Assembly (NCBI GenBank): GCA_949293165.1
Contig: CASFCW010000001.1
Span: 23,979 to 87,978 of the forward strand
DNA from: an uncultured bacterium
GTDB lineage: Bacteria; Bacillota; Clostridia; Oscillospirales; Oscillospiraceae
DNA length: 64,000 nucleotides
Direction of reading: 5' to 3'
Positions 3,999 to 18,624 of the stretch are shown piece by piece. The notes beneath the pieces were generated by a model. It was not told the DNA's origin. It searched no databases and saw nothing but the letters and a program-made list of their open reading frames with translations. Positions within the stretch are counted from its first letter, which is position 1, and every line of letters starts with the position of its first letter. The position numbers and the translations under genes are program-made.

Positions 3999-5267
3999 AT
4001 GAAATCGGGAAAGCCGCTGATTACCTTCGTGATGGCCATGCTGGCGGTCAGCCTGCTGTGCTATCTGGGCTACTACGCCTGGACCACCTTCCGAGACCCC
4101 TTTACCACCACCTACGCCTACACCTACCAGCTCAATGACAGCGTGGAGGTGGAGGGGCTGGTGGTACGCAGCGAGTACCTGCTGCCCAGCCGCCAGGGTA
4201 TTGTGGATGTGACCCGGGGGGAGGGGGAGCAGGTGGGCGTGGGCCAGACGGTGGCCCTGGTCTACCAGGATGACCAGGCCCGCCTGGCCCAGCAGGAGCA
4301 GGACAGCCTGCGCACCGAGATTATCCAGCTGCAGTACGCCATCGGCCAGGAGGGGGACGTGGCCTCCGCCGCCAAGGTGGACGACGACATCCTCTCCGGC
4401 CTGATCCAGCTGCGTGGGGACTGCGGCGTGGGGCAGTACGGGGATCTGGAGGATCAGGTGCTGCAGGTGAAAAGCAGCGTGCTGCGGCGGGAATATGCCT
4501 ACGGCACGGAGCTGACGGCGGACGACCTGGCCCTGCGGCTGAGTGAGCTGCGCCAGCGGTATACCGCCCTGCAAAACCAGACCTACGCCACCGTCAGCCA
4601 GATCACCACGCCGGTGTCCGGCACCTTCTCCAGCCAGACAGACGGGTACGAGACCCTGGTATCCCCCGAGACCGTGGTTCAGCTCACCCCCACCGCCCTG
4701 GAAAGCCTGCTCAAGCAGGCCCCCACCGCCGACCAGGGGGCCGCCGGCAAGATCATCACCGGTAACGTGTGGTACTTCGCCGCCGTCATGACGGCGGAGC
4801 AGGCTAAACGCCTGGAGGACCAAACCAGCATCACCATCCGCTTTGCCAGCGATTTTGTGGAAAACATTCCCGCCACCCTGTACCACATCGGGGCCGAGGA
4901 GAACGGGAAGGTAGTGGTGGTGGTGTCCACCAACCGCTGCCTGGAGGATACCACCCTGCTGCGCCTCCAGTCCGCCCAGCTGATTTTCGACACCCAAACC
5001 GGCATCCGGGTGCCCAAGGCCGCCCTGCGCATGGTGACCCGGGAATCCACCGACGAGGAGACCGGCCAGGTGACCCAGACCAGCCAGTCCGGCGTCTATG
5101 TGATTACGGCGGGAAAGGCGGAGTTCAAGGCGGTGGAAATCCTGGGGGAGGGGGAGGATTTTTATGTGGTTCGCTCCCTGAACCAGGAGAAGAAGGCCCT
5201 GCGCGCCGGGGACGAGGTCATCATTCAGGCCACCGATTTGTACGACGGGAAGCTGCTGGAGTATTGA
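3999..5267 (+). CDS. HlyD-family membrane-anchored adaptor-like protein
   Basis: The 422-residue protein has one N-terminal membrane segment (about residues 8-28, TFVMAMLAVSLLCYLGYYAW) and an outside domain. A biotinyl-lipoyl-like half motif follows (GIVDVTRGEGEQVGVGQTVA, about residues 67-86), then a helical stretch rich in Q, E and R, and a beta-rich C-terminal part with RVPKAALR. This layout matches periplasmic-adaptor-like HlyD proteins of Gram-positive bacteria. No exporter gene is adjacent. It lies between hfq and the ylmE-sepF-divIVA division cluster, so a role at the envelope or septum is possible but unproven. Confidence 0.75.
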   Translation: MKSGKPLITFVMAMLAVSLLCYLGYYAWTTFRDPFTTTYAYTYQLNDSVEVEGLVVRSEYLLPSRQGIVDVTRGEGEQVGVGQTVALVYQDDQARLAQQEQDSLRTEIIQLQYAIGQEGDVASAAKVDDDILSGLIQLRGDCGVGQYGDLEDQVLQVKSSVLRREYAYGTELTADDLALRLSELRQRYTALQNQTYATVSQITTPVSGTFSSQTDGYETLVSPETVVQLTPTALESLLKQAPTADQGAAGKIITGNVWYFAAVMTAEQAKRLEDQTSITIRFASDFVENIPATLYHIGAEENGKVVVVVSTNRCLEDTTLLRLQSAQLIFDTQTGIRVPKAALRMVTRESTDEETGQVTQTSQSGVYVITAGKAEFKAVEILGEGEDFYVVRSLNQEKKALRAGDEVIIQATDLYDGKLLEY

Positions 5268-5294
5268 CAGATAGAAAGAAAGAGGGAAGCGTGT

Positions 5295-6020
5295 ATGTCC
5301 ATTCAGGAGCATGTCAGCCAGGTACAGGCAGCCATCGCCGCGGCCGCAGCCGCGGCGGGGCGAGATCCCGGGGAGATCACCCTGTGCGCCGCCACCAAGG
5401 TGCAGAGCGATGACGCCATCCGCGCCGCCATCGCCGCCGGGGTCAAGGTATGCGGAGAAAACCGGGTGCAGGAGCTGCTGGCCCATCTGGAGGGGGACGC
5501 CTACCGGGGCGCCCAGGTACACTTTATCGGCCACCTGCAAACCAACAAGGTCAAGCAGGTGGTGGGCAGGGTGGCCCTGATCCATTCCGTGGACTCCCAG
5601 CGGCTGCTCCAGGCCATTGACACCCAGGCGGAAAAGCTGGGCATCTGCCAGGACATCCTCCTGGAGGTGAACATCGCCGGGGAGGAGAGCAAGGGGGGCT
5701 GCACCCCCCAGCAGGCATGGGAGCTGGCGGCTCAGGCCGGCGCGTGTTCCCATGTGCGGCTGCGGGGCCTGATGGCAATTCCCCCCGCGGCCCAGTATCC
5801 CGGGGAAAATCGCCGGTTTTTTCAGGAAATGCACCAGCTTTATGTTGACATAAAGGGGAAGTTGGGAGATAATCAGAGTAGTATAGACTGCCTGTCTATG
5901 GGGATGAGCGGCGATTTTGCCGACGCCATCGCCGAAGGCGCCACCCTGGTTCGGGTGGGCACCGCTCTCTTCGGCCCGCGGCCTCCCATGGGACACAGTT
6001 CCGCAGCCGGAGCTCTGTGA
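5295..6020 (+). CDS. ylmE: PLP homeostasis protein, YggS/YlmE family
   Basis: A 241-residue protein of the YggS/PLPBP family, which binds pyridoxal phosphate and buffers its level but has no known catalytic reaction. The PLP lysine is in CAATKVQ (K35). Further family motifs are GENRVQE, HFIGHLQTNK, LLEVNIAGEESKGG, LRGLMAIP, SMGMSGDF and VRVGTALFG. Length is normal. In Firmicutes ylmE stands upstream of sepF and divIVA in the ylm division operon, the same order seen here. The sepF start is 30 bases after the stop. Confidence 0.95.
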   Translation: MSIQEHVSQVQAAIAAAAAAAGRDPGEITLCAATKVQSDDAIRAAIAAGVKVCGENRVQELLAHLEGDAYRGAQVHFIGHLQTNKVKQVVGRVALIHSVDSQRLLQAIDTQAEKLGICQDILLEVNIAGEESKGGCTPQQAWELAAQAGACSHVRLRGLMAIPPAAQYPGENRRFFQEMHQLYVDIKGKLGDNQSSIDCLSMGMSGDFADAIAEGATLVRVGTALFGPRPPMGHSSAAGAL

Positions 6021-6049
6021 AGCTCCCCTTGGAGAAAAGAGGTATTACG

Positions 6050-6532
6050 ATGGGTATTTTTGACGAGTTCAAGCGGCTGGCCCGCCCCTACGAGGACGAA
6101 GAGGACGACGCCTTTGACGACGAGTATGACGACGCCCCCCGCGTCCCCGAGCGCCGGGAGCGCAGCACCCGCAGCAGCAGCGATATTCCCTACAGCAGCC
6201 CCGCTTCGGACGACGGGGACAATCGCCGCAACAAGGTGGTCAATATCCGCGCGGCCACTCAGCTCCAGGTGGTGCTGGTCAAGCCGGAGCGGTTTGAAAA
6301 TGCCAGCGAGATTGCCGACCATTTGAGAGAAAAGCGCACCGTGGTGCTCAATCTGGAGTCCGCCAATAAGGAAATTGCCCGCCGCCTGCTGGACTTCCTG
6401 TCCGGCGTGGCCTACGCCAACGAGGGCAAGATCAAGAAGGTGGCCATCTCCACCTACATCATCACCCCCTACAACGTAGACATTCTGGGTGAGCTCATCG
6501 ACGAGCTGGAAAACAACGGCCTGTATTTCTGA
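6050..6532 (+). CDS. sepF: cell division protein SepF
   Basis: SepF bundles FtsZ filaments and ties the Z-ring to the membrane. I choose the ATG that gives MGIFDEFKRLARPYEDEED, because the first residues form the expected amphipathic membrane helix and the ribosome site GAAAAGAGGT lies just before it; an in-frame ATG 11 codons upstream would spoil that helix. The acidic Ser/Arg linker is followed by the SepF core (about residues 70-160) with VVLVKPERFENA, KRTVVLNLE, ARRLLDFLSGVAYA and the C-terminal IDELENNGLYF. The protein has 160 residues, a usual size. Confidence 0.93.
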   Translation: MGIFDEFKRLARPYEDEEDDAFDDEYDDAPRVPERRERSTRSSSDIPYSSPASDDGDNRRNKVVNIRAATQLQVVLVKPERFENASEIADHLREKRTVVLNLESANKEIARRLLDFLSGVAYANEGKIKKVAISTYIITPYNVDILGELIDELENNGLYF

Positions 6533-6656
6533 CAGCCGTCGCCCCCGCCCCAGGGGGCATATGGCCGCTCTGGCGGACGGCCCCGGCGCTTTGCCCCCCT
6601 CTGACGGGCGGGGCGGCCGCCGGCAAAAAAAGTGAGAGATTGAGGAGGTAACCACT

Positions 6657-7403
6657 ATGCTCACACCCCAGGAGGTTTCTCAGTGCGCGTTTCCCAAGGC
6701 GTCCTTCGGCGGCTATAATATGGCCCACGTGGACGAATTTCTGGACGCGCTGACTGGGGATTACACCACCCTCTACAACGAAAACGCGGTGCTCAAGAGC
6801 AAGATGAAGGTCCTGGTGGACAAGGTGGAGGAATACCGGGCCACCGAGGAGGCCATGCGGAAGGCCCTGATGACCGCCCAGCGCCTGGCCGACGACCTGG
6901 TGAAGGAGGCCGAGGAGAAGCGGGCCCAGATCCTGGCCGACGCCCAGGCGGAGGCCCAGGCCCAGATTGAATCCCTCCGCCAGGAGGTCGCCCTGGAGGA
7001 GGGGCGGCTGGCCGCCGCCCAGGAGAACACCGCCTCCTTTGTGGAGAAGGTGCGGGCCCTTTACGCCCAGTCCCAGGCCTTCCTGGACAACCTGGGCCAG
7101 CTGGTCCCCCAGCTTCCCGGCCCCAGCGCCCAGGAGCAGCAGGTGGAGCAGGCCGCCTCCGACATTGACGACAGCGTCCAGCGCCTGGTGGCCCAAGCTA
7201 TGGCCGACGCCGCGGCGGAGAACCAGCGGGCCCAGCAGCAGGAGCAGCAGGCGCAGCAGGATCTGTCTGAGACCACCCTCTTTACCCCGCCCAAGGCGGA
7301 GGAGGAGACGCCCCCCCGGGACGAGGAGCTGGACGAGTTGGAGCGCACCACCAAGATTGATTTCTCCAACCTTCAGTTCGGCCGGGATTACGAGATTAAA
7401 TAA
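6657..7403 (+). CDS. divIVA: DivIVA domain cell-division/polarity protein
   Basis: The 248-residue protein starts with the DivIVA N-terminal motif (MLTPQEVSQCAFPKAS then FGGYNMAHVDEFLD), which binds curved membranes at septa and poles. A long coiled coil follows (about residues 30-115, rich in A, E, K, Q), then a second helical segment and an acidic tail ending in FGRDYEIK. It is the last gene of the ylmE-sepF-divIVA group. The 124-base gap after sepF carries the ribosome site GAGGAGG. A strong terminator follows the stop. Confidence 0.92.
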   Translation: MLTPQEVSQCAFPKASFGGYNMAHVDEFLDALTGDYTTLYNENAVLKSKMKVLVDKVEEYRATEEAMRKALMTAQRLADDLVKEAEEKRAQILADAQAEAQAQIESLRQEVALEEGRLAAAQENTASFVEKVRALYAQSQAFLDNLGQLVPQLPGPSAQEQQVEQAASDIDDSVQRLVAQAMADAAAENQRAQQQEQQAQQDLSETTLFTPPKAEEETPPRDEELDELERTTKIDFSNLQFGRDYEIK

Positions 7404-7408
7404 CCGCC

Positions 7409-7446
7409 TTCCCGCTCCCCGTTTTTCGGCGGAGCGGGAATTTTAT
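7409..7446 (+). terminator. Rho-independent terminator after divIVA
   Basis: A ten-base perfect stem TTCCCGCTCC (7409-7418) with GGAGCGGGAA (7431-7440) is followed by TTTTA. It ends the division-gene transcript before the cell-wall locus. Confidence 0.9.
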
Positions 7447-7541
7447 GGGCCTTCCCCCGGCCCAAGGGTATAAGCCCCCGCCGATACCGGTAAACTTTGG
7501 GTTGTGCCGTCCCCTTTTCCCCGGGATTTTCCTCCCCTCCA

Positions 7542-7570
7542 TTGCCTTTTCCTGGGGAAAGTGCTACAAT
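7542..7570 (+). promoter_or_regulatory. sigma-A type promoter of the D-Asp/MurE-like locus
   Basis: TTGCCT (7542-7547) and TACAAT (7565-7570) are separated by 17 bases. It lies just after the divIVA terminator and about 55 bases before the first gene, so the locus starts its own transcript. Confidence 0.75.
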
Positions 7571-7624
7571 GTTCACTACGGATGGACAATCCCATCCCAC
7601 TGGACAGAAGGGAGCTTATCTATC

Positions 7625-8692
7625 ATGCGTACGCTGGTCATCGACACCTCTGCTCTCCGTGCCAACATCAACGTGATTAAAGACCGTGCGGCCGGTGCTG
7701 TGCTCTACGGCGTGGTCACGGGGGACGGCGGCGGCCTTGGCACAGCCAACCTGGCCCGGCTGATCCGCAACGAGGGAATCAGCCGCTTCGCGGTGGGCTC
7801 TGTGGAGGAGGCCCACGCCCTGCGGGAGGCCGGCTTCGTGGATGAGGAGATCCTGATGCTGCGCTCCACCGTGGACCGGGAGGAGCTGGAGCGGCTGGTG
7901 GACCTGAACGTGGTGTGCACCGTCTCCTCTGTGGACACCGGCATGGCTTTGAACGCCGTGGCGGAAAACCGCTCCACCGTGGCGGAGGCCCACATCCAGG
8001 TGGACACCGGCATGGGGCTGGGCGGCTTCCTGGTGGGGGAGCCGGAAAAAATCCTCCTGGCCTACCGCTCCCTACCCAACGTGGCGCTGTCCGGCATTTA
8101 CACCCAGCTGCACACCGCTTCCCGGCAAAACCGGGAGATCGAGGCCCAGCTGAACCAGTTCCACCAGGTCCTGGACGCCATCCATGCCGCCGGCTTTGAG
8201 ACGGGCACCGTCCACGCCGCCGGCTCCTACGCCCTGCTCCACTTCCAGCAGGCCCGGCTGGACGCCGTGCGGGCCGGCTCCGTTTTGCTGGGCCGCTGCC
8301 GCCGCACCTCCGGAGACGGCCTGACCACCGTGGGCTGCGGCCAGGCCCCCCTGTCCGAGGTCCGCTGGCTGCCCAAGGGCCATACTGTGGGAGCGGACCG
8401 GCTGGTCACCCTGAAACGGCCCACCCGGGTAGCCGTGCTGCCTGTTGGGTACCAAAATGGGCTGGGGGTGGACCGCCCCAGGGACTCCGGTCTGCTTGCC
8501 GCCTTCCGCCAGTGGCGGGCCAAGCGCCGCCGCACGGTTCTGGTGGGCGGGCAGCGGGTTCGGGTCATCGGCTCCATCGGCTCCACCGAGACCATTCTCA
8601 ATGTCACCAAAGTGAAATGTTCCGCCGGGGATCTGGCCACCTTCGACCTGGACCCCCTGTTTGCCAAGGGGTTTCAGCTGGAATTCCGCTGA
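7625..8692 (+). CDS. alanine-racemase-like protein lacking the PLP lysine
   Basis: The 355-residue protein follows the alanine racemase fold throughout: IDTSALRANI at the N-terminus, HIQVDTGMGLGGF, GIYTQLHTAS, VHAAGSYALLH, DAVRAGSVLLG, and the C-terminal barrel with VAVLPVGYQNGLGVDR. The motif that should hold the Schiff-base lysine (VVKANAYGHG in active enzymes) reads VVTGDGGGLG, with Thr32 at the lysine position. Known chemistry of the family cannot work without that lysine, so it is probably a pseudoenzyme or binding partner. I chose the start at MRTLVIDTS over an in-frame ATG 60 codons upstream, which would lie inside the promoter. A D-Asp-ligase-like gene follows after 38 bases. Confidence 0.85.
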   Translation: MRTLVIDTSALRANINVIKDRAAGAVLYGVVTGDGGGLGTANLARLIRNEGISRFAVGSVEEAHALREAGFVDEEILMLRSTVDREELERLVDLNVVCTVSSVDTGMALNAVAENRSTVAEAHIQVDTGMGLGGFLVGEPEKILLAYRSLPNVALSGIYTQLHTASRQNREIEAQLNQFHQVLDAIHAAGFETGTVHAAGSYALLHFQQARLDAVRAGSVLLGRCRRTSGDGLTTVGCGQAPLSEVRWLPKGHTVGADRLVTLKRPTRVAVLPVGYQNGLGVDRPRDSGLLAAFRQWRAKRRRTVLVGGQRVRVIGSIGSTETILNVTKVKCSAGDLATFDLDPLFAKGFQLEFR

Positions 8693-8730
8693 CGGCCCCC
8701 CCGCAATACTCTGATAATTGAGGCTTATCC

Positions 8731-9948
8731 ATGAACGACAATCATCCCTTTCAGCCGCTGCTGTTTGGCGGCGACTTAAACGTCTACAGCGTTGCCCGGG
8801 CCTTCCACGAGGCCTACGACGTGAAAAGTGTGGCTTACGGCAGATTTTCTTCCTCCCCCTGCCACGGCAGCGCCATCATTGATTATCGGGTCTGTCCCGA
8901 TATTGAGCAGGATTCCGTCTTTCTCCACACGGTGGAGCACGCAGCCCGGGAGTTTGCCCACACCACCGTCCTCCTGCTGGGCTGCGGGGACAGCTATGTC
9001 CACCTGGCCGCCAAGTACCGGGATAAAATGCCGGCCAACGTCATCGCCCCCTATATCGACGGCTCCCTGCTGGACACCTTAATCAACAAGGAAAAATTCT
9101 ACCAGCTGTGCGACCGGTACGGCATCGACCACCCCACCACCTTTATCTACGACAAGTCCATGGGCCATGATTTCACCCTGCCCTTTGGCCCCCCCTATAT
9201 TGCCAAGCCAGCCGACAGCGTGGCCTACTGGGCCACCGGGGCCCACGGTCTGTCCAAGGTCTATGTCTGCCAGAGCTGGGACGAGCTGCTCTCCGCCCTG
9301 GACCAGGTCTACCAGGCCGGCTACCCCGACCACATGGTGCTGCAGGAATTCATCCCCGGGGACGACACCTATATGCGGGTGCTGACCAACTATTCCGACC
9401 GCAGCGGCAAGGTCAAGCGCATGTGTTTGGGGCATGTGCTGCTGGAGGAGCATTCCCCCCTGGGAATCGGCAACCACGCCGTTATCATCACCGACTATGA
9501 CGAGGCCCTGTGCCGCCAGATCCAGGGGCTGCTGGACGCCCTGCATTACACCGGCTTTTCCAACTTCGACATCAAGTTCGACGCCCGGGACGGCAAGTAC
9601 AAGGTTTTCGAGATCAACTGCCGCCAGGGCAGAAGCAACTATTATGTCACCGGCGCGGGGGAGAACATCGCCCGCATCCTGGTGGAGGACCGTATCGAGG
9701 GGAAGGAGCTGCCCTTCCGCATCACCCAGACCCGCTCCCTGTGGCGGATGATCCCCAAGGAGCTGGTGTTTGAGTTTGTCCCTCACAAGTACCACAAGGA
9801 GATCAAGGAGCTGATCCATCAGGGGGCGGACTCCCACACCCTGGTGTACCATGGGGATAACTCCCCCGCCCGGCGGCTGCGCATCTGGAAAAACCACCTG
9901 GGCAACCTGCGGCGGTTCCGCCGCTACAACCCCAAACCCCAGAACTAA
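8731..9948 (+). CDS. ATP-grasp ligase resembling D-aspartate ligase
   Basis: A 405-residue soluble ATP-grasp protein. The N-terminal part (PLLFGGDLNVYSVARAFHEAY) resembles the D-aspartate ligases that attach D-Asp to the lysine of peptidoglycan stem peptides. The ATP-grasp core is visible as YIAKPADSV, VLQEFIPGDDTYMRV and the metal-binding C-terminal strand YKVFEINCRQGRSNYY. The family assignment is from memory of the motifs. It is supported by the aspartate racemase encoded next, since D-Asp ligase and Asp racemase are neighbours in Enterococcus and Lactococcus. The acceptor here is unknown. The ribosome site (TTGAGG) is weak. A terminator-like hairpin follows the gene. Confidence 0.7.
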   Translation: MNDNHPFQPLLFGGDLNVYSVARAFHEAYDVKSVAYGRFSSSPCHGSAIIDYRVCPDIEQDSVFLHTVEHAAREFAHTTVLLLGCGDSYVHLAAKYRDKMPANVIAPYIDGSLLDTLINKEKFYQLCDRYGIDHPTTFIYDKSMGHDFTLPFGPPYIAKPADSVAYWATGAHGLSKVYVCQSWDELLSALDQVYQAGYPDHMVLQEFIPGDDTYMRVLTNYSDRSGKVKRMCLGHVLLEEHSPLGIGNHAVIITDYDEALCRQIQGLLDALHYTGFSNFDIKFDARDGKYKVFEINCRQGRSNYYVTGAGENIARILVEDRIEGKELPFRITQTRSLWRMIPKELVFEFVPHKYHKEIKELIHQGADSHTLVYHGDNSPARRLRIWKNHLGNLRRFRRYNPKPQN

Positions 9949-9961
9949 GCATTCGTCCCTG

Positions 9962-10002
9962 TCCGCTCCCGCCTGGCCTCAGGCCGGAGCGGAACCTTTT
10001 TT
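9962..10002 (+). terminator. intra-locus terminator or attenuator hairpin
   Basis: TCCGCTCC (9962-9969) pairs with GGAGCGGA (9986-9993) and GCCTG (9971-9975) with CAGGC (9979-9983). Six T residues follow at 9997-10002. It sits between the D-Asp-ligase-like gene and the aspartate racemase gene, and no clear new promoter follows, so partial read-through or attenuation is likely. Confidence 0.8.
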
Positions 10003-10026
10003 CCACAATTCCCCCGGGAATTGTGG
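10003..10026 (+). repeat. 24-base palindrome just upstream of the racemase gene
   Basis: CCACAATTCCC (10003-10013) and GGGAATTGTGG (10016-10026) are perfect inverted repeats with a two-base centre. It follows the T-run of the previous hairpin directly and ends 24 bases before the racemase start. It could be a protein operator or a second RNA hairpin. Confidence 0.7.
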
Positions 10027-10050
10027 AATGATTTCCGGAGGACTCCATCT

Positions 10051-10770
10051 ATGAAACAAGCTCGACTGGGCGTAATCGGGGGAATGGGCCCCCAGGCCAC
10101 CAATACCTTTTACCAGTTTGTCATTGACCGCACCAAGGCCCGCACCGACCAGGAGCACCTGTCCATGCTGATCTTCTCCGACAGCCAGATCCCCGACCGT
10201 ACCCAGGCCATCCTGGGCACCCCGGAGCAGCGGGAGGAGGTGTTTCAGCGGCTGCTGGCCGACGCCCGCCTGCTGGAGCACGCCGGCTGCACCGTGCTGG
10301 CCGTGCCGTGCAACACCTCCCATTTCTTCCTGGATCAGGTGCAGAAGCAGATCTCCATCCCCATCCTTCATATGATCCGGGAAACCGCCAAGCTGTTGGC
10401 CAGCCAGGGCAAACGCCGCCCTGGCATCCTGGCCACCGACGGCACCATCCGCAGTTCCCTATACCAGAAGGAATTTATTGCACTTAGTATGACTCCTTGT
10501 ATTCCATCTGCCCCGGTCCAGCGCCAGGTCATGTCCCTGATTTACGACGACGTAAAGGCGGGCAAGGCGGGGGACCCGGAAAAGTTCGCCGCCGTCCACC
10601 AGGATCTGGAGGAGCAGGGCTGCGACTGCGCGGTGCTGGCCTGTACGGAGCTGTCGGTATTCGCCGCCCAGCACCATCTGCCCCCCTTCTATGTGGACGC
10701 CATGGCGGTGCTGGCGGAGCGGGCCGTCCAGGCCTGCCACAAGCCTCTGCGAACCATATATTCCAAGTAA
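10051..10770 (+). CDS. aspartate/glutamate racemase family protein
   Basis: The 239-residue protein belongs to the cofactor-independent Asp/Glu racemase family. The two catalytic cysteines are present: C87 in VPCNTSHFF and C198 in ACTELSVF. Other family motifs are LGVIGGMGPQAT at the N-terminus and GILATDGTIRS. This fits an aspartate racemase that supplies D-Asp to the upstream ligase. I chose the ATG after CCGGAGG; a TTG ten codons earlier lies in the palindrome and has no ribosome site. The MurE-like gene follows after 13 bases. Confidence 0.88.
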   Translation: MKQARLGVIGGMGPQATNTFYQFVIDRTKARTDQEHLSMLIFSDSQIPDRTQAILGTPEQREEVFQRLLADARLLEHAGCTVLAVPCNTSHFFLDQVQKQISIPILHMIRETAKLLASQGKRRPGILATDGTIRSSLYQKEFIALSMTPCIPSAPVQRQVMSLIYDDVKAGKAGDPEKFAAVHQDLEEQGCDCAVLACTELSVFAAQHHLPPFYVDAMAVLAERAVQACHKPLRTIYSK

Positions 10771-10783
10771 TGGAGGTAGCTAT

Positions 10784-12940
10784 ATGTCCTTTCCCATTCG
10801 TCCCCTGGGGGAGTACGCGGCTCTGCTGGAGCGGGCCGGTCTGCTCACCGCCCCCATCCCTCACGATCTGGATCGGGCGTTTCCCGTCTCCCTGGTGTCC
10901 TGCGACTCCCGGGAGGTGGTTCCCGGCACCCTGTTTCTCTGCAAGGGCGCGGCTTTCCGGCCGGAATTTCTCCAAAGCGCCCGGGAGAAGAGGGCTGTAG
11001 CCTACGTCAGCCAAACGGAATATCCGGACTGCGGCCTGCCCGCTCTGCTGGTGTCCGACATGCGCCGGGCCATGGCGCCTTTGGCAGATCTGTACTACGA
11101 CCACCCCTCCGCCAAGGTGAAGGTGGCCGGCTTTACCGGCACCAAGGGCAAATCCTCCTCCGCCTATTACCTCAAGTCCATTCTGGATGTTTTCCAGGCC
11201 CAGCAGGGGAAGGGGGAGACCGGCGTGGTGTCCTCCATCGACACCTACGACGGGGTGGAGCGGTTTGAATCCCACCTTACCACCCCGGAGCCGCTGGATC
11301 TCCAGCGCCACTTTGCCAACGCCGCCGGCGCCGGGCTGGAGTATGTGACCATGGAGGTATCCAGCCAGGCCCTGAAGTACCACCGCTCCCTGTGTACCCG
11401 CCTGGCGGCGGCCTGCTTCCTCAACATCGGGTACGACCACATCTCCCCCATTGAGCACCCGGATTTTGAGGACTACTTCGCCTCCAAGCTGAAAATTTTC
11501 CACCAGGCGGAGGTGAATTGTGTAAACCTGGACTGCGACCATGCCCAGCGCATCCTGGCGGCGGCCCAGGAGGCCGGCGCCCCCATCATTACCTTCTCCC
11601 AAAAAGACCCCACCGCCCAGGTCTATGCCAGCCAGGTGCGGAAGGAGGGGGGGCAGATCCTGTTTCACGTGCGCACCCCCAGCTGGGAGCGGGAGCTGCG
11701 CCTGACCATGCCCGGGCTGTTCAATGTGGAAAACGCCCTGGGCGCCATCGCCGTGTGCCAGGCCTTCCACATCCCCCAGTCCGCAATATATACCGGCCTG
11801 GTCCGGGCCCGGGTGCCCGGGCGGATGGAAACCTACGCCAACGCCGACGGCAGCCTGTCCGCCATTGTGGACTACGCCCACAACCGCCTGTCCTTCGAGA
11901 CGCTGTTCCGCTCCGTGCGGGCGGAATATCCCGGCCACGCCATGGCCATTGTTTTTGGCTGCCCAGGCCAGAAGGCCATCGACCGGCGGCGGGATCTGGG
12001 GGAGATGGCGGGACGCTGGTGTGACCGGGTCTACCTCACAGAGGAGGACAGCGGGGAGGAGGACACCCTGGACATCTGCCGGGAGGTAGCCGGCCACGTG
12101 GAAGGGGCGGGCCGCCACCCGGTCATCATCCCCAACCGGGGCGAGGCCATCCGCCAGGCCATTCTGGACAGCGACGGCCCCACCGTGCTGCTGGTGACGG
12201 GAAAGGGCCAGGAAACCCGGCAAAAGCGCGGGCGGGCCTACATTGACACCCCCACCGATGTAGAATATGTGCAGGCATTTTTGCAGGAATATGACCTGCG
12301 CCGGGGCCTGACCGCCGCCAGCTCCGCCCGGGCCGCCCTGGCCATGCTCCCCGGCCTGGAGGAGCGGCAGGGGGAGGCCTGGCTGGTGTGCTGCCCCCAG
12401 GACTGGGAAGATCTTGCCCAGGACGCCGCCGCCCTGGCCCGCACCGGCGTGCGGCTGGTGCTGGTGGCCCCTCAGACGGCTTCTCTGCCCGCCCCTCTTT
12501 CCGGGATCGGGGTATCCCTCTCCGCCGGGGACGGCGGTCTGCTGAAAAAGGCCAGCTCCGGCTATACCGTCCAGCCCAAGGTGCTGGACACCCTTCTGGA
12601 CGGCGGCTTTATCCCCGTCCTCTCCGGCGGTGCGGAGGAGGCCCAGGCCATCGCCCAGGCCATGTCCGTCAGCCGGCTGGTGTTCTTCACCCAGCAGGAA
12701 CCCTCCCTGGCATTGGGGGAAAACCGGCAGGTGGAGCTGCTCCACATGGACGGGAAGAAGGCCGACGAGGTGCTGGCTGAGCACGCCCTGCCCGCCCCCC
12801 TGCAAACCGCCCTTCAGTCCGCCCGGGAATGCGTGGCGCTGGGGGTGGGCTGCGTCACCCTGCTGGATGAAAACGCCCCCCACATCCTGCTGCGGGAGGC
12901 CCTGGGCCAGCGGGTGCTGGGCCTGTCCGTCAAGGGCTGA
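10784..12940 (+). CDS. MurE-like Mur ligase fused to a degenerate amino-acid-kinase-like domain
   Basis: At 718 residues this is much longer than a normal MurE (about 480-500). Residues 1 to about 505 are Mur ligase: P-loop GTKGKSS (119-125), LTTPEPLDL, EVSSQAL, DHISPIEHPDF, PGRMETYA, VDYAHNRLS and LVTGKGQETRQKRGR. The DNPR motif that recognises meso-DAP is replaced by EEDSGEED, so the amino acid added is probably not meso-DAP. The last 200 residues (GVRLVLVAPQ, LLDGGFIPVLSGG, GVGCVTLLDENAPHILL) resemble the C-terminal half of acetylglutamate-kinase-type folds, but the phosphate-binding glycines are lost. The start follows TGGAGGTAG. It shares a transcript with the aspartate racemase. Confidence 0.85.
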   Translation: MSFPIRPLGEYAALLERAGLLTAPIPHDLDRAFPVSLVSCDSREVVPGTLFLCKGAAFRPEFLQSAREKRAVAYVSQTEYPDCGLPALLVSDMRRAMAPLADLYYDHPSAKVKVAGFTGTKGKSSSAYYLKSILDVFQAQQGKGETGVVSSIDTYDGVERFESHLTTPEPLDLQRHFANAAGAGLEYVTMEVSSQALKYHRSLCTRLAAACFLNIGYDHISPIEHPDFEDYFASKLKIFHQAEVNCVNLDCDHAQRILAAAQEAGAPIITFSQKDPTAQVYASQVRKEGGQILFHVRTPSWERELRLTMPGLFNVENALGAIAVCQAFHIPQSAIYTGLVRARVPGRMETYANADGSLSAIVDYAHNRLSFETLFRSVRAEYPGHAMAIVFGCPGQKAIDRRRDLGEMAGRWCDRVYLTEEDSGEEDTLDICREVAGHVEGAGRHPVIIPNRGEAIRQAILDSDGPTVLLVTGKGQETRQKRGRAYIDTPTDVEYVQAFLQEYDLRRGLTAASSARAALAMLPGLEERQGEAWLVCCPQDWEDLAQDAAALARTGVRLVLVAPQTASLPAPLSGIGVSLSAGDGGLLKKASSGYTVQPKVLDTLLDGGFIPVLSGGAEEAQAIAQAMSVSRLVFFTQQEPSLALGENRQVELLHMDGKKADEVLAEHALPAPLQTALQSARECVALGVGCVTLLDENAPHILLREALGQRVLGLSVKG

Positions 12941-12990
12941 CCATATCGACACAGGGCTGCATTTCCTTGCAGCCGGGAAGGAATCGGATC

Positions 12991-13800
12991 ATGAACGAAT
13001 TTCACGGAAGTCAGAATTATGTGGCCGACCCGGAACTGATGCGGGCGGTGAATATTGCCATGGTGCTGCAAAAGCCCCTGCTGATTAAGGGGGAGCCGGG
13101 CACGGGGAAAACCATGCTGGCGGAGGCCATCGCCCAGGCGCTGGACATGGAGCTGATTATCTGGAACATCAAATCCACCACCAAGGCCCAGGACGGCCTG
13201 TATGTCTACGACGTGGTGCAGCGGCTGTACGACAGCCAGTTCGGCACCGCCGGGGTGGACAACATTGAAAAATACGTCAAGCTGGGCAAGCTGGGCCAGG
13301 CCTTCACCGCCGAGAAGCAGGTCATCCTCCTCATCGACGAGATTGACAAGGCAGACCTGGAGTTCCCCAACGACCTGCTTTGGGAGCTGGACCGGATGGA
13401 GTTCCACATCCCTGAGACGGGCAAAACCATCACCGCCAGGCACCGCCCGGTGGTTATCATCACCTCCAACGCGGAGAAGGAGCTGCCCGACGCCTTCCTC
13501 CGCCGGTGCGTGTTCCACTACATCGAGTTCCCCGACAAGGAGCTGCTGGCTGAGATCGTCCGGGTCCACTTCCCTGACCTGGACGAGGCGCTGCTCACCC
13601 AGGTGCTGGAGGCCTTTTACCGCATCCGCCAGCTCCCCTCCATCAAGAAAAAGCCCTCCACCAGCGAGATCATCGACTGGATTCGGGCCCTTCAGCACGG
13701 GGGGATCGACCCCAAGCGGGTGGTAAAGGAAATCCCTTACCTGGGGGTACTGGTGAAAAAGAACGAGGATATGGACACGGTGAACCGGATGTGGCGGTGA
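12991..13800 (+). CDS. MoxR-type AAA+ ATPase
   Basis: A 269-residue single-domain AAA+ ATPase: Walker A GEPGTGKTM, Walker B VILLIDEIDKAD, sensor 1 VIITSNAEKELP and an arginine finger region DAFLRRCVF. MoxR ATPases act with a VWA-domain partner to activate or mature a target protein, and a VWA gene follows after four bases. I chose the ATG giving MNEFHGSQNYV because GGGAAGGA precedes it. The gap of 50 bases after the MurE-like gene holds no terminator, so read-through from the cell-wall locus is possible. The target is unknown. Confidence 0.92.
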   Translation: MNEFHGSQNYVADPELMRAVNIAMVLQKPLLIKGEPGTGKTMLAEAIAQALDMELIIWNIKSTTKAQDGLYVYDVVQRLYDSQFGTAGVDNIEKYVKLGKLGQAFTAEKQVILLIDEIDKADLEFPNDLLWELDRMEFHIPETGKTITARHRPVVIITSNAEKELPDAFLRRCVFHYIEFPDKELLAEIVRVHFPDLDEALLTQVLEAFYRIRQLPSIKKKPSTSEIIDWIRALQHGGIDPKRVVKEIPYLGVLVKKNEDMDTVNRMWR

Positions 13801-13804
13801 GACC

Positions 13805-15013
13805 ATGTTTGAGGACTTTCTGTATTTGCTCCGGCGGAACGGGCTGAAGGTCTCCCTTACCGAATGGATGTCCCTGATGGAAGCCCTGGAGAAGGGGCTG
13901 CACAGCTCCAGCTTTACCGGCTTTTACTACCTGTGCCGCTGTTTGCTGGTAAAAAGCGAGGCGGACTTTGACTGCTTCGACCGCACCTTCCTCCAGTATT
14001 TCCGCGACGTCCCCTTCGAGCAGGAGGTGTCCCAGGAGCTGCTGGACTGGCTGGACCGCCCCGACGTGCTCACCGACTACGCCAACTGGGACGAGGAGCA
14101 GGCCCGCATCAACGAGATGCTGTCGGAAGAGGAGATCGAGCAGATGCTCCAGGAGCGGATGAAGGAGCAGACAGAGGAGCACAACGGCGGCAATTACTGG
14201 GTTGGCACCCACGGCATGTCCGTGTTCGGCAACTCCGGCCTGTCCCCCAAGGGTATCCGGGTTGGGGGGCAGGGGATGCACCGCCGGGCCTTCCGGGTGG
14301 CCGGGGAGCGCCGGTTCCGGGATTTCCGGGGGGACAACACCCTGGACACCCGCCAGTTCCAGGTGGCCCTGCGCCATCTGCGCCAGTTCTCCGGCCTGGT
14401 GGACCTGCCCGCCACGGAGTTCGACGTGGACAACACCATTCAGGACACCGCGGACAACGGCGGGATGCTCACCGTGCGGTATAAAAAGCCCCGGCAGAAC
14501 ACGGTGAAGGTGCTGCTGCTGATGGATTCCGGCGGTTCCATGGATTACTACGCCCAGCTGTGCTCCGCCCTGTTCCAGGCGGTGAGCAAGGTGGGCCACT
14601 TCAAGGATCTGAAGGTGTATTACTTCCACAACTGCCCCTACAACCACATCTACCGCACCCCAAACCTGATGTCCGCCGACGCTTTGCCCACGGATTGGCT
14701 GCTGTCCAACCTGTCCTCGGAGTACAAGGTCATCTTTGTCGGGGACGCCCAGATGGCCCCCCATGAGCTGATGGGCGGCTATTACTACGGCCGGGACCGG
14801 CAAAAGGACCCGGACACCCCCAAATGCGGCCTGGACTGGCTGCGCCGGTTCCGAAACAAATACCCCAATGTGATCTGGGTCAATCCCAGCCAGCGGCCCA
14901 GCTGGGGCCAATACTGGACCCAGACCTACGACACCATTGCCGGCATCTTCCCCATGTTCCCCCTCACCGTGGACGGCCTGGAGGCGGGGATGAAAAAGCT
15001 GCTGGCCCGGTAA
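13805..15013 (+). CDS. VWA domain protein (CoxE-like), MoxR partner
   Basis: The 402-residue protein has a helical N-terminal half and a von Willebrand A domain in the second half. The metal site reads LLMDSGGSMDYY near residue 240; the middle residues differ from the common DxSGS form. It contains no signal peptide or membrane segment, so it acts in the cytoplasm. The gene begins four bases after the stop of the AAA ATPase gene, a typical MoxR-VWA pair. It ends the long plus-strand block and is followed by a strong bidirectional terminator. The client protein is not known. Confidence 0.9.
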   Translation: MFEDFLYLLRRNGLKVSLTEWMSLMEALEKGLHSSSFTGFYYLCRCLLVKSEADFDCFDRTFLQYFRDVPFEQEVSQELLDWLDRPDVLTDYANWDEEQARINEMLSEEEIEQMLQERMKEQTEEHNGGNYWVGTHGMSVFGNSGLSPKGIRVGGQGMHRRAFRVAGERRFRDFRGDNTLDTRQFQVALRHLRQFSGLVDLPATEFDVDNTIQDTADNGGMLTVRYKKPRQNTVKVLLLMDSGGSMDYYAQLCSALFQAVSKVGHFKDLKVYYFHNCPYNHIYRTPNLMSADALPTDWLLSNLSSEYKVIFVGDAQMAPHELMGGYYYGRDRQKDPDTPKCGLDWLRRFRNKYPNVIWVNPSQRPSWGQYWTQTYDTIAGIFPMFPLTVDGLEAGMKKLLAR

Positions 15014-15028
15014 CCCCCGTAAACACAG

Positions 15029-15073
15029 CGCCCCGAATCAGGGACCGGTCGGTCCCCGATTCGGGGCGTTTTT
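15029..15073. terminator. bidirectional terminator between convergent genes
   Basis: CGCCCCGAATC (15029-15039) pairs with GATTCGGGGCG (15058-15068), with an inner GGGACC/GGTCCC stem. TTTTTA follows on the plus strand. It separates the plus-strand VWA gene from the minus-strand sulfatase-type gene. Confidence 0.9.
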
Positions 15074-16976
15074 ATTCTCCCTGTGGGATCAGGTTTTGTT
15101 CCCGATAGGCCTGGGCCAGCAGGAAATCCGCCAGGAAGGCGGAATCCGCCTCATCCAGGGTGTCGGTCAGGTTTCCATCCTCATCCATGTAGATGCCCAG
15201 GGAATGGAGCAGCGGGGTGACCGACCGCATCTCCCGGGACAGCTGAAGGAAGGAGGGGCCTGCCCAGCCGCACTGGTTGAACACCTCCGTCATCAGGAAG
15301 CAGGGGGAGAAGTCCCCGCCGTCCCCCACAAACTCGTTGCCCAGCGCCTCCTTGGCGGCGGAGTTGGCCCAAATCAGGTAGGGGGTGGAGTAGTATTGAT
15401 AAAAGCCCTCCAGGGTGGAGGTGTTGAAGTTGGCGTTGATGCCCAGGTAGCCGGAGTTCCCGTTCCCCGCCCAGGGCTTGTGGTCGCCGAACAGCACCAG
15501 GACCGTGGGCTCCTCCAGCTCCTCCAGCCGCTGGGACAGGCCCACCATGGCCTGGATGGTCTCGTTTATCCCGTGGAGGTAATTGCTGAACACATAGCAG
15601 CTTTCCGCCGGCAGCCCGCTGGTCGCCGGGTCAATGATGGTCTCATAGCTCATGTGGTCGTACTCATAGGGGCCGTGATTCTGGTAGGAGACGGAGAAGG
15701 AGAACACCGGCCCGGCACCCTGCCCAAGCTGGTCCACCAGATCCTGATAGACCTCCTCCACCAGGATATCGTCGGAGTGCCACTGAGCGGCCACAGGGTC
15801 CACCAGCTCCCCGTAGTGGTTTTCCGTAAACCAGTATTCCCGGAAGCCCAGGTATTGGTTAATGGTCTCCCGGTCGTAGAACCACCCGAAGCCCGGGTGC
15901 CCTCCCCGGGTGTTATACCCCTGCCGGTCGAAATACCAGACATAGGAGTCGGTGGGGCGGACAAAGTCGGAATGCCGGCTATAGCCGGTGAGGAAGGCCC
16001 ACTCGCTGTCCACCGTACCGCCGGCAAAAATATTGGTCAGCAGATTGCCTGTGACGGACTGCCCCTCCAGCTGGTGCCAGCTGTCATAAATCTCCTGCAC
16101 CCCCGCCTGCTCCGCCAGGGCGGGGAAGTCGGTCAGGTCGCAGAAGGCCTCCAGCATGATCCCCACCACGTTGACCTTCCGCTCCAGGGGGATATCCGCC
16201 TCCGGGTAGTCGGCCAGGATCTCCTCCGGCGTCCGCTGGCCCTCCTCCCCCGTCACCGGCTCCGGCGCGGGCTGGGGCAGGAGATCGCCTGCGCTGTGCA
16301 GGAAGGAATAGACCACCCCATGGCTGACGTAAACCTGGCTGTCCGACCAAGGGTTGAACCAGTCTGCCTCCGGGTTTTCCCGCTCATACAGCGCCTCATT
16401 CAGGTACAGCGCCGGCATGGCCACCCAAAGCAGCGCCAGGGCGGACAGCAGGCCCAGCAGCCGTTCCCTCGTCCACCCTTTCTTTCTGGGCAGCACCACA
16501 CAAACCACCGCCAGCCCCGCCAGGGCCAGCGCCAAATCCAGCCAGATCAGAGCGGTAAAGTCCAGGGAATATTTCCCCGCCATATTGCCCGCCTCGGACA
16601 CCAGAGCCAGATCCTTCATCAGCAGGGGGTCCCCCCGGAGCTGGATTTTAAAGTAGTTGACCAGGGCAATCAGCAGCACCGGCACCCCGGCAATCAGATA
16701 GGCCGCCCAGCCCCGGCCGGTGAGGCAGTACGCCCCCCACAGCAGCAGCACCACCGGCAGCAGGTTCAGCGCCAGCAGGGTGGGGCTGCCCAGGCAGTTT
16801 TCCAGCAGCACCAGCCCAGACACCTGGGACAGGCTGTCCGCCCCAATGGGCAGGGCCAGCAGCCCCAGAAAAACCCCCGCCGCTGTGAGCCACAGCCCAC
16901 GCCAGACAGGGTACCAGGCCGCCCCCTTTACCCGCTCCATAAAAGCCGGGGCCGTCACATTGTATTTTCCGCCCAT
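15072..16976 (-). CDS. LTA synthase family membrane phosphoglycerol transferase
   Basis: A 634-residue polytopic protein: about five membrane segments within residues 15-190, then an extracellular sulfatase-like domain. The domain starts at VNVVGIMLEAFCDLTDFP and has the nucleophile region NIFAGGTVDSEWAF, aligned with the catalytic Thr block of LtaS. It ends with VLVLFGDHKPW, a metal-ligand motif. The reaction would be transfer of glycerol phosphate or a related group onto a cell-surface polymer. I start at MGGKYNVTAP because ACGGAGGCAG stands just before it; a 29-residue longer in-frame start has no ribosome site. It is a single gene with terminators on both sides. Confidence 0.88.
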   Translation of the reverse strand: MGGKYNVTAPAFMERVKGAAWYPVWRGLWLTAAGVFLGLLALPIGADSLSQVSGLVLLENCLGSPTLLALNLLPVVLLLWGAYCLTGRGWAAYLIAGVPVLLIALVNYFKIQLRGDPLLMKDLALVSEAGNMAGKYSLDFTALIWLDLALALAGLAVVCVVLPRKKGWTRERLLGLLSALALLWVAMPALYLNEALYERENPEADWFNPWSDSQVYVSHGVVYSFLHSAGDLLPQPAPEPVTGEEGQRTPEEILADYPEADIPLERKVNVVGIMLEAFCDLTDFPALAEQAGVQEIYDSWHQLEGQSVTGNLLTNIFAGGTVDSEWAFLTGYSRHSDFVRPTDSYVWYFDRQGYNTRGGHPGFGWFYDRETINQYLGFREYWFTENHYGELVDPVAAQWHSDDILVEEVYQDLVDQLGQGAGPVFSFSVSYQNHGPYEYDHMSYETIIDPATSGLPAESCYVFSNYLHGINETIQAMVGLSQRLEELEEPTVLVLFGDHKPWAGNGNSGYLGINANFNTSTLEGFYQYYSTPYLIWANSAAKEALGNEFVGDGGDFSPCFLMTEVFNQCGWAGPSFLQLSREMRSVTPLLHSLGIYMDEDGNLTDTLDEADSAFLADFLLAQAYREQNLIPQGE

Positions 16977-17079
16977 GCTTCTGCCTCCGTCCAATCCCAC
17001 TTTACCAGCCGTTCCGCCAGCGGGGACAGCCTCGTATCGTTGTATATTATCATATTTTTCCAAAAAAGAAAAGGCGTTT

Positions 17080-17116
17080 TTAAAAAGCGCCGCCGTTGTG
17101 GAAAACGGCGGCGCTT
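17080..17116 (-). terminator. Rho-independent terminator of the M23 peptidase gene
   Basis: A 13-base perfect stem (17085-17097 with 17104-17116, loop of six) is followed on the minus strand by TTTTTA. It lies eight bases after the peptidase stop and prevents read-through into the LTA-synthase-like gene. Confidence 0.9.
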
Positions 17117-17124
17117 AAAATGGA

Positions 17125-18624
17125 TTAGGGCAGGTAGGACAGGGGGTTAACCGCCGTACCGTTGATACGGATCTCAAAGTGGCAGTGGGGCCCGGTGGAG
17201 CGGCCTGTGCTGCCGGCCTTGGCGACCTGCTGGCCCTTATAGACCTTGTCACCCACAGATACCAGCAGGGAGGAGTTGTGCCCGTAGTAGGTCTGTGCCC
17301 CATTGTCGTGGGTAATCACCACCAGATAGCCGTAGGAGCCGCTGTAGCCGGAGAAGGTGACCGTACCTCCGTCCGCGGCGTAGACGGGGGTGCCCAAAGG
17401 CACGGCGATGTCCAGGCCGGAGTGGTAGCTGTAGCTGCCGAAGATATACCGGGTACCGAAGTAGGAGGTAATGGTGCCGGTGGTGGGCCAGCGATAGCTG
17501 CCGGTGGAGGCGGTCTTGGGCTTTTCCTTGGTGCCCACCGCCTTCACGGTGGTGGTGGGTTCCCGCAGGGTGGTGGTGGAATGAATCTCCCGGTCGGTCT
17601 CCTGGCCGTTTTGATAGGTAATGGTGGCGGACACCTGCTCCTCACCCTCCACACCCTGAACCAGGATCTTGCTGCTCCCAATGTACATGGAGGAGTCATC
17701 CCGGGTCTCCACAGGGCACTCGATGGACTGGGTATAGATCACGTCCTCCACCGTTTTCACAGACAGGACAGGGATCAGCTCCTTCACATTGAGGACATCC
17801 CCAATCATCAGCCGGTTGATATCCACCCCGGGATTCAGCTCCGCCAGCTCGCTGGAGGACATGTTGTTGTCGTAGGCAATGCCGTTGAAGGTGTCCCCCT
17901 CCACCACGGTGTAGGTGGTGGAGCCGCTGCTGCTGGCCAGCAGCGCCTGTTCCATCTCGCTGACCGTCATAATCTGATCCGCCTGATAGACCGGCGCAAT
18001 CTCCAGCTGGTTGACAAATTCCACCGATACGGTGTTTTCCGTCACATAGCGCTGCTTCAGGTTTTCCAGCAGCTGGTTCAGGGCGTCCAGATCCTTGACC
18101 ACCCCTACCGCCTTTCCATCAACCAGCACCTGATATTTTCTCAGCTCGCCGCTGATCTCGTCCAGCTGGCTGTAGAAAAAGTTGGCCAGATTCTCCTCTG
18201 AGGTCAGGTCTGAACGGAGGCTGACCACAAAATCATATTCAATATCGCTGTCCACATGGTATTCGTAGCCCAGGATGGCGCTGCCCTCCTGCTCCACGCT
18301 TCGGATGGCCTGCTCCACCACGGACTCGTCGGCCACCACAGCCACCGTCTCCCCATCCACGGTGATGGCATAGCTGGGGGAGTACAGGGTGGTCAGCGTC
18401 AGGGCTACGGCCAGAGCGCCCGCTCCGGCCAAGTAAGTGATGGGCCCGGTCGCCCGGTTGCCGGACACCACCCCGTGCACCGCGTGGACCATCCGCCGCA
18501 CGTGAATGCGGCTCCACTCTTTGGCCGTGGCAGCAAACCGGGCCGCCGGCTCTCTCCAGGGCATATTCGCCAAACAGGACAGGAGGGCTTCCACGCCCTT
18601 ATTCTCGTTGCGTTCCTGTGCCAT
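17125..18624 (-). CDS. cell-wall endopeptidase with LysM, G5-like and M23 domains
   Basis: A 499-residue protein with one membrane segment (about residues 63-85) after a cytoplasmic N-terminus. A LysM domain follows at about residues 238-283 (TYTVVEGDTFNGIAYDNN ... LMIGDVLNV), then a G5-like part (EVSATITYQNGQE region) and a C-terminal M23 peptidase. The zinc ligands HxxxD (HSGLD) and HxH (HCHFE) are intact. M23 enzymes cut peptide bridges of peptidoglycan. It has its own promoter and terminator, so it is transcribed alone. Confidence 0.93.
   Translation of the reverse strand: MAQERNENKGVEALLSCLANMPWREPAARFAATAKEWSRIHVRRMVHAVHGVVSGNRATGPITYLAGAGALAVALTLTTLYSPSYAITVDGETVAVVADESVVEQAIRSVEQEGSAILGYEYHVDSDIEYDFVVSLRSDLTSEENLANFFYSQLDEISGELRKYQVLVDGKAVGVVKDLDALNQLLENLKQRYVTENTVSVEFVNQLEIAPVYQADQIMTVSEMEQALLASSSGSTTYTVVEGDTFNGIAYDNNMSSSELAELNPGVDINRLMIGDVLNVKELIPVLSVKTVEDVIYTQSIECPVETRDDSSMYIGSSKILVQGVEGEEQVSATITYQNGQETDREIHSTTTLREPTTTVKAVGTKEKPKTASTGSYRWPTTGTITSYFGTRYIFGSYSYHSGLDIAVPLGTPVYAADGGTVTFSGYSGSYGYLVVITHDNGAQTYYGHNSSLLVSVGDKVYKGQQVAKAGSTGRSTGPHCHFEIRINGTAVNPLSYLP

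Follow-up and report, generated by a model that had tools for sequence, protein, structure and literature searches.

An uncultured bacterium of the Oscillospiraceae carries a three-gene cassette that probably gives it a cell wall cross-linked through L-ornithine (Orn), or less likely L-lysine (Lys), and D-aspartate (D-Asp), beside the machinery for a wall based on meso-diaminopimelate (mDAP). The cassette lies in the window, by which we mean the whole stretch of 64,000 nucleotides analysed here (contig CASFCW010000001.1 of assembly GCA_949293165.1, a genome of 2.19 Mb in 127 contigs that is 95% complete). According to the ORF (open reading frame) list of the window, the interval 7542-12940 is filled by four ORFs on one strand. 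Three of them form the core, an AslA-type ligase, an aspartate-family racemase and a paralogue of the Mur ligase MurE that we call MurEL; the remaining gene, AlrL, encodes a protein of the alanine racemase fold. A sequence-only reading of this DNA had picked out the four genes as a candidate D-Asp peptidoglycan-branch or peptide-synthesis locus, and the block is real as described; the triplet is conserved in relatives, contrary to the lack of conservation that was to refute that reading.

Conservation was assessed in 100 loci, 20 of them chosen from 36 ligase-positive genomes and the others being the best 80 of at least 451 from a scan of named organisms; 96 remain without duplicates. The loci were picked by similarity of the ligase, and the sample is therefore uneven. 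Sequence reaches 4 kb or more downstream in 75 distinct loci; the racemase is present in 68 of them, MurEL in 69 and both in 66, and those 66 keep the order ligase-racemase-MurEL on one strand, which rules out chance ORFs. Nine loci lack the full triplet (L048, L059, L068, L072, L113, L114, L117, L120 and L128); the genomes of L048 (G064), L113, L117 and L120 hold a second MurE scoring in the MurEL range on another contig. At the level of genomes, 36 of 150 members of the family, from 28 of 106 genera, encode the ligase. In a phylum-wide sample limited to genomes at least 90% complete, it occurs in 12 of 398. A search of the 150 family genomes for MurEL at E-values up to 1e-70 gave 32 positives, all of them among the 36 that bear the ligase, and none among the 114 that do not; within the family, MurEL thus comes only with the ligase. 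The view of the four genes as one unit therefore stands for the ligase, racemase and MurEL. It does not stand for AlrL, which lies upstream of the ligase on the same strand in just 29 of the 96 distinct loci and is ruled out as an essential part of the cassette. Outside the triplet the surroundings vary between loci, with recJ-relA in many of them; a relA/spoT cluster seen in 35 loci was considered as a partner and dropped, since together with recJ it represents a housekeeping neighbourhood. Among the recurrent neighbour clusters are antisense ORFs from the GC-rich DNA of these organisms, and a number of clusters have no Pfam name. The nearest named relatives by the ligase scan are Oscillospiraceae metagenome-assembled genomes (MAGs), Clostridiales bacterium CCNA10, Pseudoflavonifractor and Flavonifractor. 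Named commensal carriers include Flintibacter muris DSM 110149 (L116), Evtepia gabavorous KLE1738 (L106) and Flavonifractor sp. An100 (L060), the last with a fused ArgB domain on its MurEL.

The case for an altered stem peptide turns on MurEL. The window protein scores 260.6 bits against TIGR01085, barely over the cut-off of 257.3, carries about 220 additional C-terminal residues, and reads EDSG where the DNPR motif of mDAP-type MurE enzymes is expected. The same genome encodes a separate DNPR-bearing MurE next to a penicillin-binding protein gene, which is 30% identical to MurEL. The MurEL family comprises 91 rows (80 distinct sequences), two of which end before the motif, and DNPR is found in none of the 89 readable rows; they have EDSG (52), EDAG (12), DDPG (10), EDPG (9), EDEG (2), and DDSE, DDSG, EDCG or DDPA (one each). 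By contrast, DNPR is present in 52 of the 53 best non-MurEL MurE loci from the carrier genomes, the exception (L161) reading DDDR. Judged by this motif, MurEL does not resemble an enzyme that adds diaminopimelate.

In trees of 38 and 47 rows, MurEL falls into a clade supported at 100/100, with the DNPR enzymes outside. Its other members are the MurE of Collinsella aerofaciens, the only MurE of genome G260 (motif DDPA), Vescimonas MurE2, and the MurE proteins of Enterococcus faecalis and Latilactobacillus curvatus. Common to the clade are a P-loop of the TGTKGK type and a two-residue insert (DHISPIEHP in the window). This company suggests that MurEL adds Lys or Orn. A structure model of the 718-residue MurEL built from five sequences reached low global confidence (predicted template modelling score, pTM, 0.47). 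Two further MurE-like sets deserve mention in their own right. Vescimonas fastidiosa encodes a MurE-like protein with a DDPD motif (L176, 6034-7521) beside thyA and two genes past pgeF, with no ligase within the 13 kb stretch around it, and this is perhaps another alternative MurE. Genome G328 (loci L226-L229), which is 100% complete and without spoIVA, combines the ligase with three divergent MurE-like proteins, two of them with a DDLN-type motif.

In one relative MurEL seems able to serve as the sole MurE. The Eubacteriaceae genome UW_MP_ANA2_1 (G174, locus L134) has six proteins with Mur ligase domains, namely MurC, MurD, MurF, FolC, MurT and MurEL, and neither a MurE besides MurEL nor spoIVA was found in it, a result for one genome without a completeness figure. 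MurEL was likewise the only MurE found in G172, a MAG of 1.5 Mb in which the match is cut and contains a stop. Elsewhere the two types sit close together: a DNPR MurE follows MurEL on the same strand in 13 related loci (L083, L094, L100 and ten others) and lies nearby on the opposite strand in L097, and in G066, G145, G154, G155 and G156 the DNPR MurE behind MurEL is the only other MurE found. The grouping of MurEL with the MurE enzymes of bacteria with Lys or Orn walls, together with its status as sole MurE in one relative, makes an ordinary stem-peptide role the simpler account. The altered stem peptide, one of two outcomes that the sequence-only reading had drawn from the additional Mur ligase, thus finds support, and its other outcome, a peptide made outside normal murein, does not.

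The ligase has no Pfam match, and sequence libraries return weak hits only, mainly of the carbamoyl-phosphate-synthase kind; searches of PDB sequences with the protein and its profile gave nothing useful. Its suspected kinship with D-Asp ligases is nevertheless borne out by a predicted fold and by full-length homologues. The structure model (mean predicted local distance difference test, pLDDT, 87.7) has the ATP-grasp fold, and by title all 50 PDB matches shown are ATP-grasp enzymes. In tblastn searches of plasmid records, homologues in L. crispatus, L. fermentum and L. curvatus are 34-36% identical over 96-97% of the length, and a closer one (45.8%) occurs in Subdoligranulum. An alignment of 19 relatives has 97 invariant columns, and all three lactobacillus proteins share 61 of them. 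The homologue follows aspS and an amino acid racemase gene in L. curvatus and asnB in L. crispatus; in L. fermentum neither a racemase nor asnB adjoins it. A passage on lactic acid bacteria describes AslA as an ATP-grasp enzyme that attaches D-Asp to L-Lys and, for L. lactis, places racD in the operon of aslA (PMC4155827), and the racemase and asnB contexts match the AslA/RacD/AsnH setting as that passage presents it. The window protein is hence a putative AslA-type ligase that would join D-Asp to the side-chain amine of residue 3. Two PylC entries are the best PDB matches of the model, at 15-17% identity. PylC joins a D-ornithine-type carboxylate to the epsilon-amine of lysine, which is the same kind of bond as the one proposed here, although it belongs to the pyrrolysine pathway.

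The racemase had been read as an aspartate racemase with both catalytic cysteines. The window protein scores 136.1 bits for the Pfam Asp/Glu racemase family and 207.7 bits for the aspartate-type model TIGR00035 (cut-off 93.1), and it does contain the cysteine motifs PCNT and ACTE. Both motifs are kept in all 83 racemase matches of the related loci, duplicates counted. In this context the enzyme would convert L-Asp to D-Asp.

The domain fused to MurEL, which the sequence-only reading had noticed and left unnamed, is the remnant of an acetylglutamate kinase (ArgB). In all three relatives tested, the fused C-terminal domain scores 241.7-252.9 bits against an argB cut-off of 151.3, and Pfam assigns it to AA_kinase; the motifs KYGG, HGGG, NAD and GGMxPK are kept in the 10 intact domains aligned. 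Among 82 MurELs measured, an extension of about 300 residues is present in 34 (three of them duplicates) and a shorter remnant of 153-229 residues in 13, the window included; two run into the end of their contig (L132, and L056 with an apparently intact start). The window domain itself gives no argB match, the best related model reaching 17.9 bits. A simple Nei-Gojobori estimate over 7 pairs puts the ratio of nonsynonymous to synonymous substitution (dN/dS) at 0.17-0.61 in the remnant, compared with 0.08-0.26 in the MurE part and 0.11-0.22 in AlrL, so that the remnant is less constrained than the MurE part. A standard ArgB match over the cut-off was found in all 31 carrier genomes surveyed (chosen from 72). 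Fused ArgB occurs in 15 of them, 14 of which also hold a separate ArgB, while G037 has the fused copy only; the separate ArgB of the window genome scores 258.1 bits. ArgB is an enzyme of the ornithine pathway, and ornithine is therefore the likeliest third residue, ahead of lysine.

Taken as a pathway, the racemase would supply D-Asp from L-Asp, and MurEL would extend UDP-MurNAc-L-Ala-D-Glu by an amino acid that is not mDAP and bears an amine in its side chain; L-ornithine is the best candidate, L-lysine the second. The AslA-type ligase would link that amine to D-Asp through the beta-carboxylate of the latter. The predicted product is an A4beta (Orn-D-Asp) or A4alpha (Lys-D-Asp) cross-bridge, with an mDAP-type MurE retained in the same cell. 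The MurEL-ArgB fusion of the relatives may tie the supply of ornithine to its use; in the window, with its decayed ArgB part, the separate argB would supply the ornithine.

Several observations weigh against this interpretation. The Collinsella and Vescimonas sequences form long branches whose placement the tree program flagged as unsure, PylC leads the structural matches only narrowly, with biotin carboxylases and other ATP-grasp enzymes at nearly equal scores, and no muropeptide or enzyme data for carriers were found among the matches listed from the open-access literature. The choice of ornithine is affected by the E. faecalis MurE, which is annotated as an L-lysine ligase and sits inside the same 100/100 clade, by the 33 of 82 MurELs that have no ArgB extension at all, and by the loss of the ATP and substrate motifs from the window domain. 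These points would suit a variant of the favoured pathway in which L-lysine is residue 3 and the ArgB fusion is incidental or phosphorylates, for example, another gamma-carboxylate. We consider this variant, whose probability is not to be added to those of the other readings, doubtful: a second, MurEL-fused ArgB beside a separate ArgB in 14 genomes is hard to explain without ornithine, and among named MurEs the nearest comes from Collinsella, which was reported by Kageyama in 1999 to have a wall of the Orn-D-Asp type. The racemase raises a question of its own, given that the window copy also passes the NCBIfam cut-off for cysteate racemase (CuyB; 204.1 against 190), as do four of five others tested, and that the L239 copy even fits CuyB (228.3) better than the aspartate-type model (224.1). 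That the racemase acts on cysteate or another acidic amino acid, to be attached by the ligase in place of D-Asp, is nonetheless highly improbable. The window copy scores slightly higher on the aspartate-type model, and the L. curvatus racemase adjoining its ligase reaches 185, just below the cut-off, which means that the CuyB model separates the substrates poorly.

A larger departure would be a D-Asp ligase that decorates the usual mDAP stem in an A4gamma-like branch, with another or auxiliary role for MurEL. The DNPR MurE kept in the window genome is compatible with this, and so is G518, which has ligase and racemase (L234 and L235) and a single MurE reading DNSR instead of DNPR. Within the family the ligase occurs without MurEL in G005, G071, G115 (79% complete) and G121 (71% complete), with a racemase in G005 and G115, and several of the 12 phylum-wide ligase matches have no MurEL-type gene (G180, G199, G227, G328, G518 and G551); the ligase evidently works in other settings too. 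As an account of the cassette the idea is unlikely, since all 32 family genomes with MurEL hold the ligase and none of the 114 ligase-free genomes holds MurEL, no mDAP-type MurE was found in G174, and the family ligases without MurEL are divergent ones, of 34-44% identity. A soluble D-Asp-containing peptide or nucleotide made outside murein is more improbable still. The window genome does have separate MurC-, MurD-, MurE-, MurF- and Ddl-like genes (apart from MurE, named by reading their translations), so that the block would be dispensable for the basic wall of this organism. However, no carrier, transporter or tailoring gene is seen among the Pfam-named recurrent neighbour clusters, several clusters being nameless, and MurEL is the only MurE found in G174, as is a near relative of MurEL in G260 (98% complete). 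The Orn- or Lys-D-Asp cross-bridge thus remains the reading that we prefer.

Why such a cell should retain two MurE enzymes may be related to sporulation. Lysinibacillus (Bacillus) sphaericus has two MurEs, a vegetative wall with Lys-D-Asp and a cortex with mDAP. By analogy, a plausible division of labour in the cassette bearers is a D-Asp-bridged wall in growth and mDAP in the spore cortex, a model with which the distribution of spoIVA agrees in part; this is suggestive only. The gene is present in 22 of 26 named genomes (chosen from 80) and in 39 of 46 further genomes, that of the window among them. It is missing from G154, G166, G172 and G174 in the first set and from G027, G045, G047, G121, G199, G260 and G328 in the second. 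Among these, MurEL stands alone in G172 and G174; G260 has its one DDPA MurE, G199 one MurE of another clade, G328 the three divergent proteins, and G166 MurEL with a DDDR protein; no MurE was found in the incomplete G121. The model is opposed by G154 and by G027, G045 and G047 (70-73% complete), which hold both MurEL and a DNPR MurE without spoIVA, and by G170, which carries spoIVA although no second MurE in it passes the cut-off. As some spoIVA-less genomes keep a DNPR MurE, spoIVA was set aside as proof of a cortex model. Isolates of Flavonifractor and Flintibacter are moreover described as non-spore-forming in a passage of PMC12050419.

AlrL, suspected of being inactive from its sequence, is a pseudoenzyme conserved in part of the family. 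It scores 153.4 bits for Ala_racemase_N and 42.6 bits for Ala_racemase_C in Pfam and stays under the NCBIfam alr cut-off (144.8 against 168). The motif of the pyridoxal phosphate (PLP) lysine reads TGDGGGLG, against KADAYGHG in the other, normal-looking Alr of the window genome. In the window protein and all 32 aligned copies (two of them duplicates) this lysine is replaced by T, S or A, and no catalytic tyrosine stands at the corresponding position. Its dN/dS points to constraint like that of the enzymes. The features of the block and their coordinates are collected in Table 1.

Table 1. Predicted features in and around the cassette (window coordinates) and the evidence for each
Feature	Position	Strand	Basis
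Terminator-like hairpin and U-rich tail 3' of the DivIVA-like gene, parting it from the block	7406..7446	+	folded stretch 7400-7450, -27.2 kcal/mol, z -3.8
Promoter-like site: TTGCCT, 17 nt, TACAAT preceded by TG	7542..7570	+	consensus match alone
AlrL, alanine-racemase-fold pseudoenzyme, lineage-specific accessory	7625..8692	+	Pfam and NCBIfam scores, alignment, dN/dS
AslA-type ATP-grasp D-aspartate ligase (predicted), 405 aa, core	8731..9948	+	homology, structure prediction
Strong hairpin followed by U run in the ligase-racemase gap, possible partial terminator	9962..10003	+	stretch 9956-10008, -25.9 kcal/mol, z -5.1
Aspartate-family racemase with both catalytic cysteines, core	10051..10770	+	Pfam, NCBIfam, motif reading
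MurEL, MurE paralogue with EDSG in place of DNPR, Lys/Orn-type clade, core	10784..12253	+	NCBIfam, motif, trees
Degenerate remnant of a fused ArgB (acetylglutamate kinase) domain that other relatives keep intact	12254..12940	+	library scores, motif alignment, dN/dS

The start given to the block by the sequence-only reading coincides with the first position of the promoter-like site, which in itself proves nothing. The hairpin and U run between ligase and racemase suggest control of read-through within the operon; a consensus terminator and promoter scan of the same DNA did not report this hairpin. Five RNA family matches were obtained in window positions 5000-17500, every one under its gathering score. 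Upstream of the block lie YggS-, SepF- and DivIVA-like genes, named from their ORF translations and not from a family search. Directly 3' of MurEL (12991-15013) follow an AAA ATPase with a MadB-like match far under the cut-off and a CoxE-like protein with a von Willebrand factor A domain, and the minus strand at 15072-17063 encodes a Sulfatase-domain protein with a weak match to lipoteichoic acid synthase, homologues of which lie near the ligase in a few relatives (L060, L105, L106, L108 and L119).

Set against known systems, the cassette is a variant of the D-Asp cross-bridge pathway that is real and conserved, with its chemistry predicted from the genes; what is new is the dedicated MurE of predicted Lys/Orn type and, in relatives, its fusion to ArgB. 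It shares with the racD-aslA pathway of Lactococcus, Enterococcus faecium and lactobacilli (type A4alpha) a homologous ATP-grasp ligase and a racemase, the two genes being adjacent in L. curvatus and, as far as the account in PMC4155827 goes, in L. lactis. In both, D-Asp is expected on the side-chain amine of residue 3, here as a prediction. Unlike that pathway, the cassette encodes a second MurE in bacteria that mostly keep a DNPR enzyme for mDAP, and no asnH-type amidation gene was recognised in it. MurEL resembles the Lys/Orn-type MurE of E. faecalis, L. curvatus and C. aerofaciens in clade, P-loop, insert and lack of the DNPR arginine, and differs in its own motif (mostly EDSG, EDAG, DDPG or EDPG), in coexisting as a paralogue with the mDAP MurE of the same genome, and in its frequent fusion to ArgB. 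The intact fused domains are in turn typical ArgB proteins by score (90-102 bits over the cut-off in all three tested) and by motif, apart from being joined to a Mur ligase; the window copy is degenerate. With L. sphaericus the cassette bearers have in common two predicted MurE types in one genome with sporulation genes, and genes for a D-Asp bridge, whereas the lineage is distant, the residue probably Orn and the cassette borne on an operon. Among the matches listed from the open-access literature, outside which most subscription journals lie, no description of the triplet, of a MurE-ArgB fusion or of D-Asp walls in these genera was recognised; a table of gut wall types in one review has no entry for the wall of Oscillibacter and lists mDAP for Faecalibacterium (PMC11382707).

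A bolder version of the proposal, possible but tentative, is that common gut Oscillospiraceae make two peptidoglycans per cell, one of Orn-D-Asp type from a transferable cassette and one of mDAP type for the cortex or another stage, that MurE-ArgB couples ornithine synthesis to the wall, and that a catalytically dead Alr was recruited in one lineage as a conserved accessory or sensor. The nature of the third residue matters to the host. Muropeptides with mDAP are ligands of NOD1, and those with Orn or Lys are read differently; a passage on PGLYRP-2 also bears on how the host reads wall types (PMC11382707). If the cassette does exchange residue 3 of the stem as well as the cross-bridge, predictions of host signalling, endolysin targets and response to drugs for these gut bacteria would change, and the cassette would offer a testable case of two MurE specificities in one cell.

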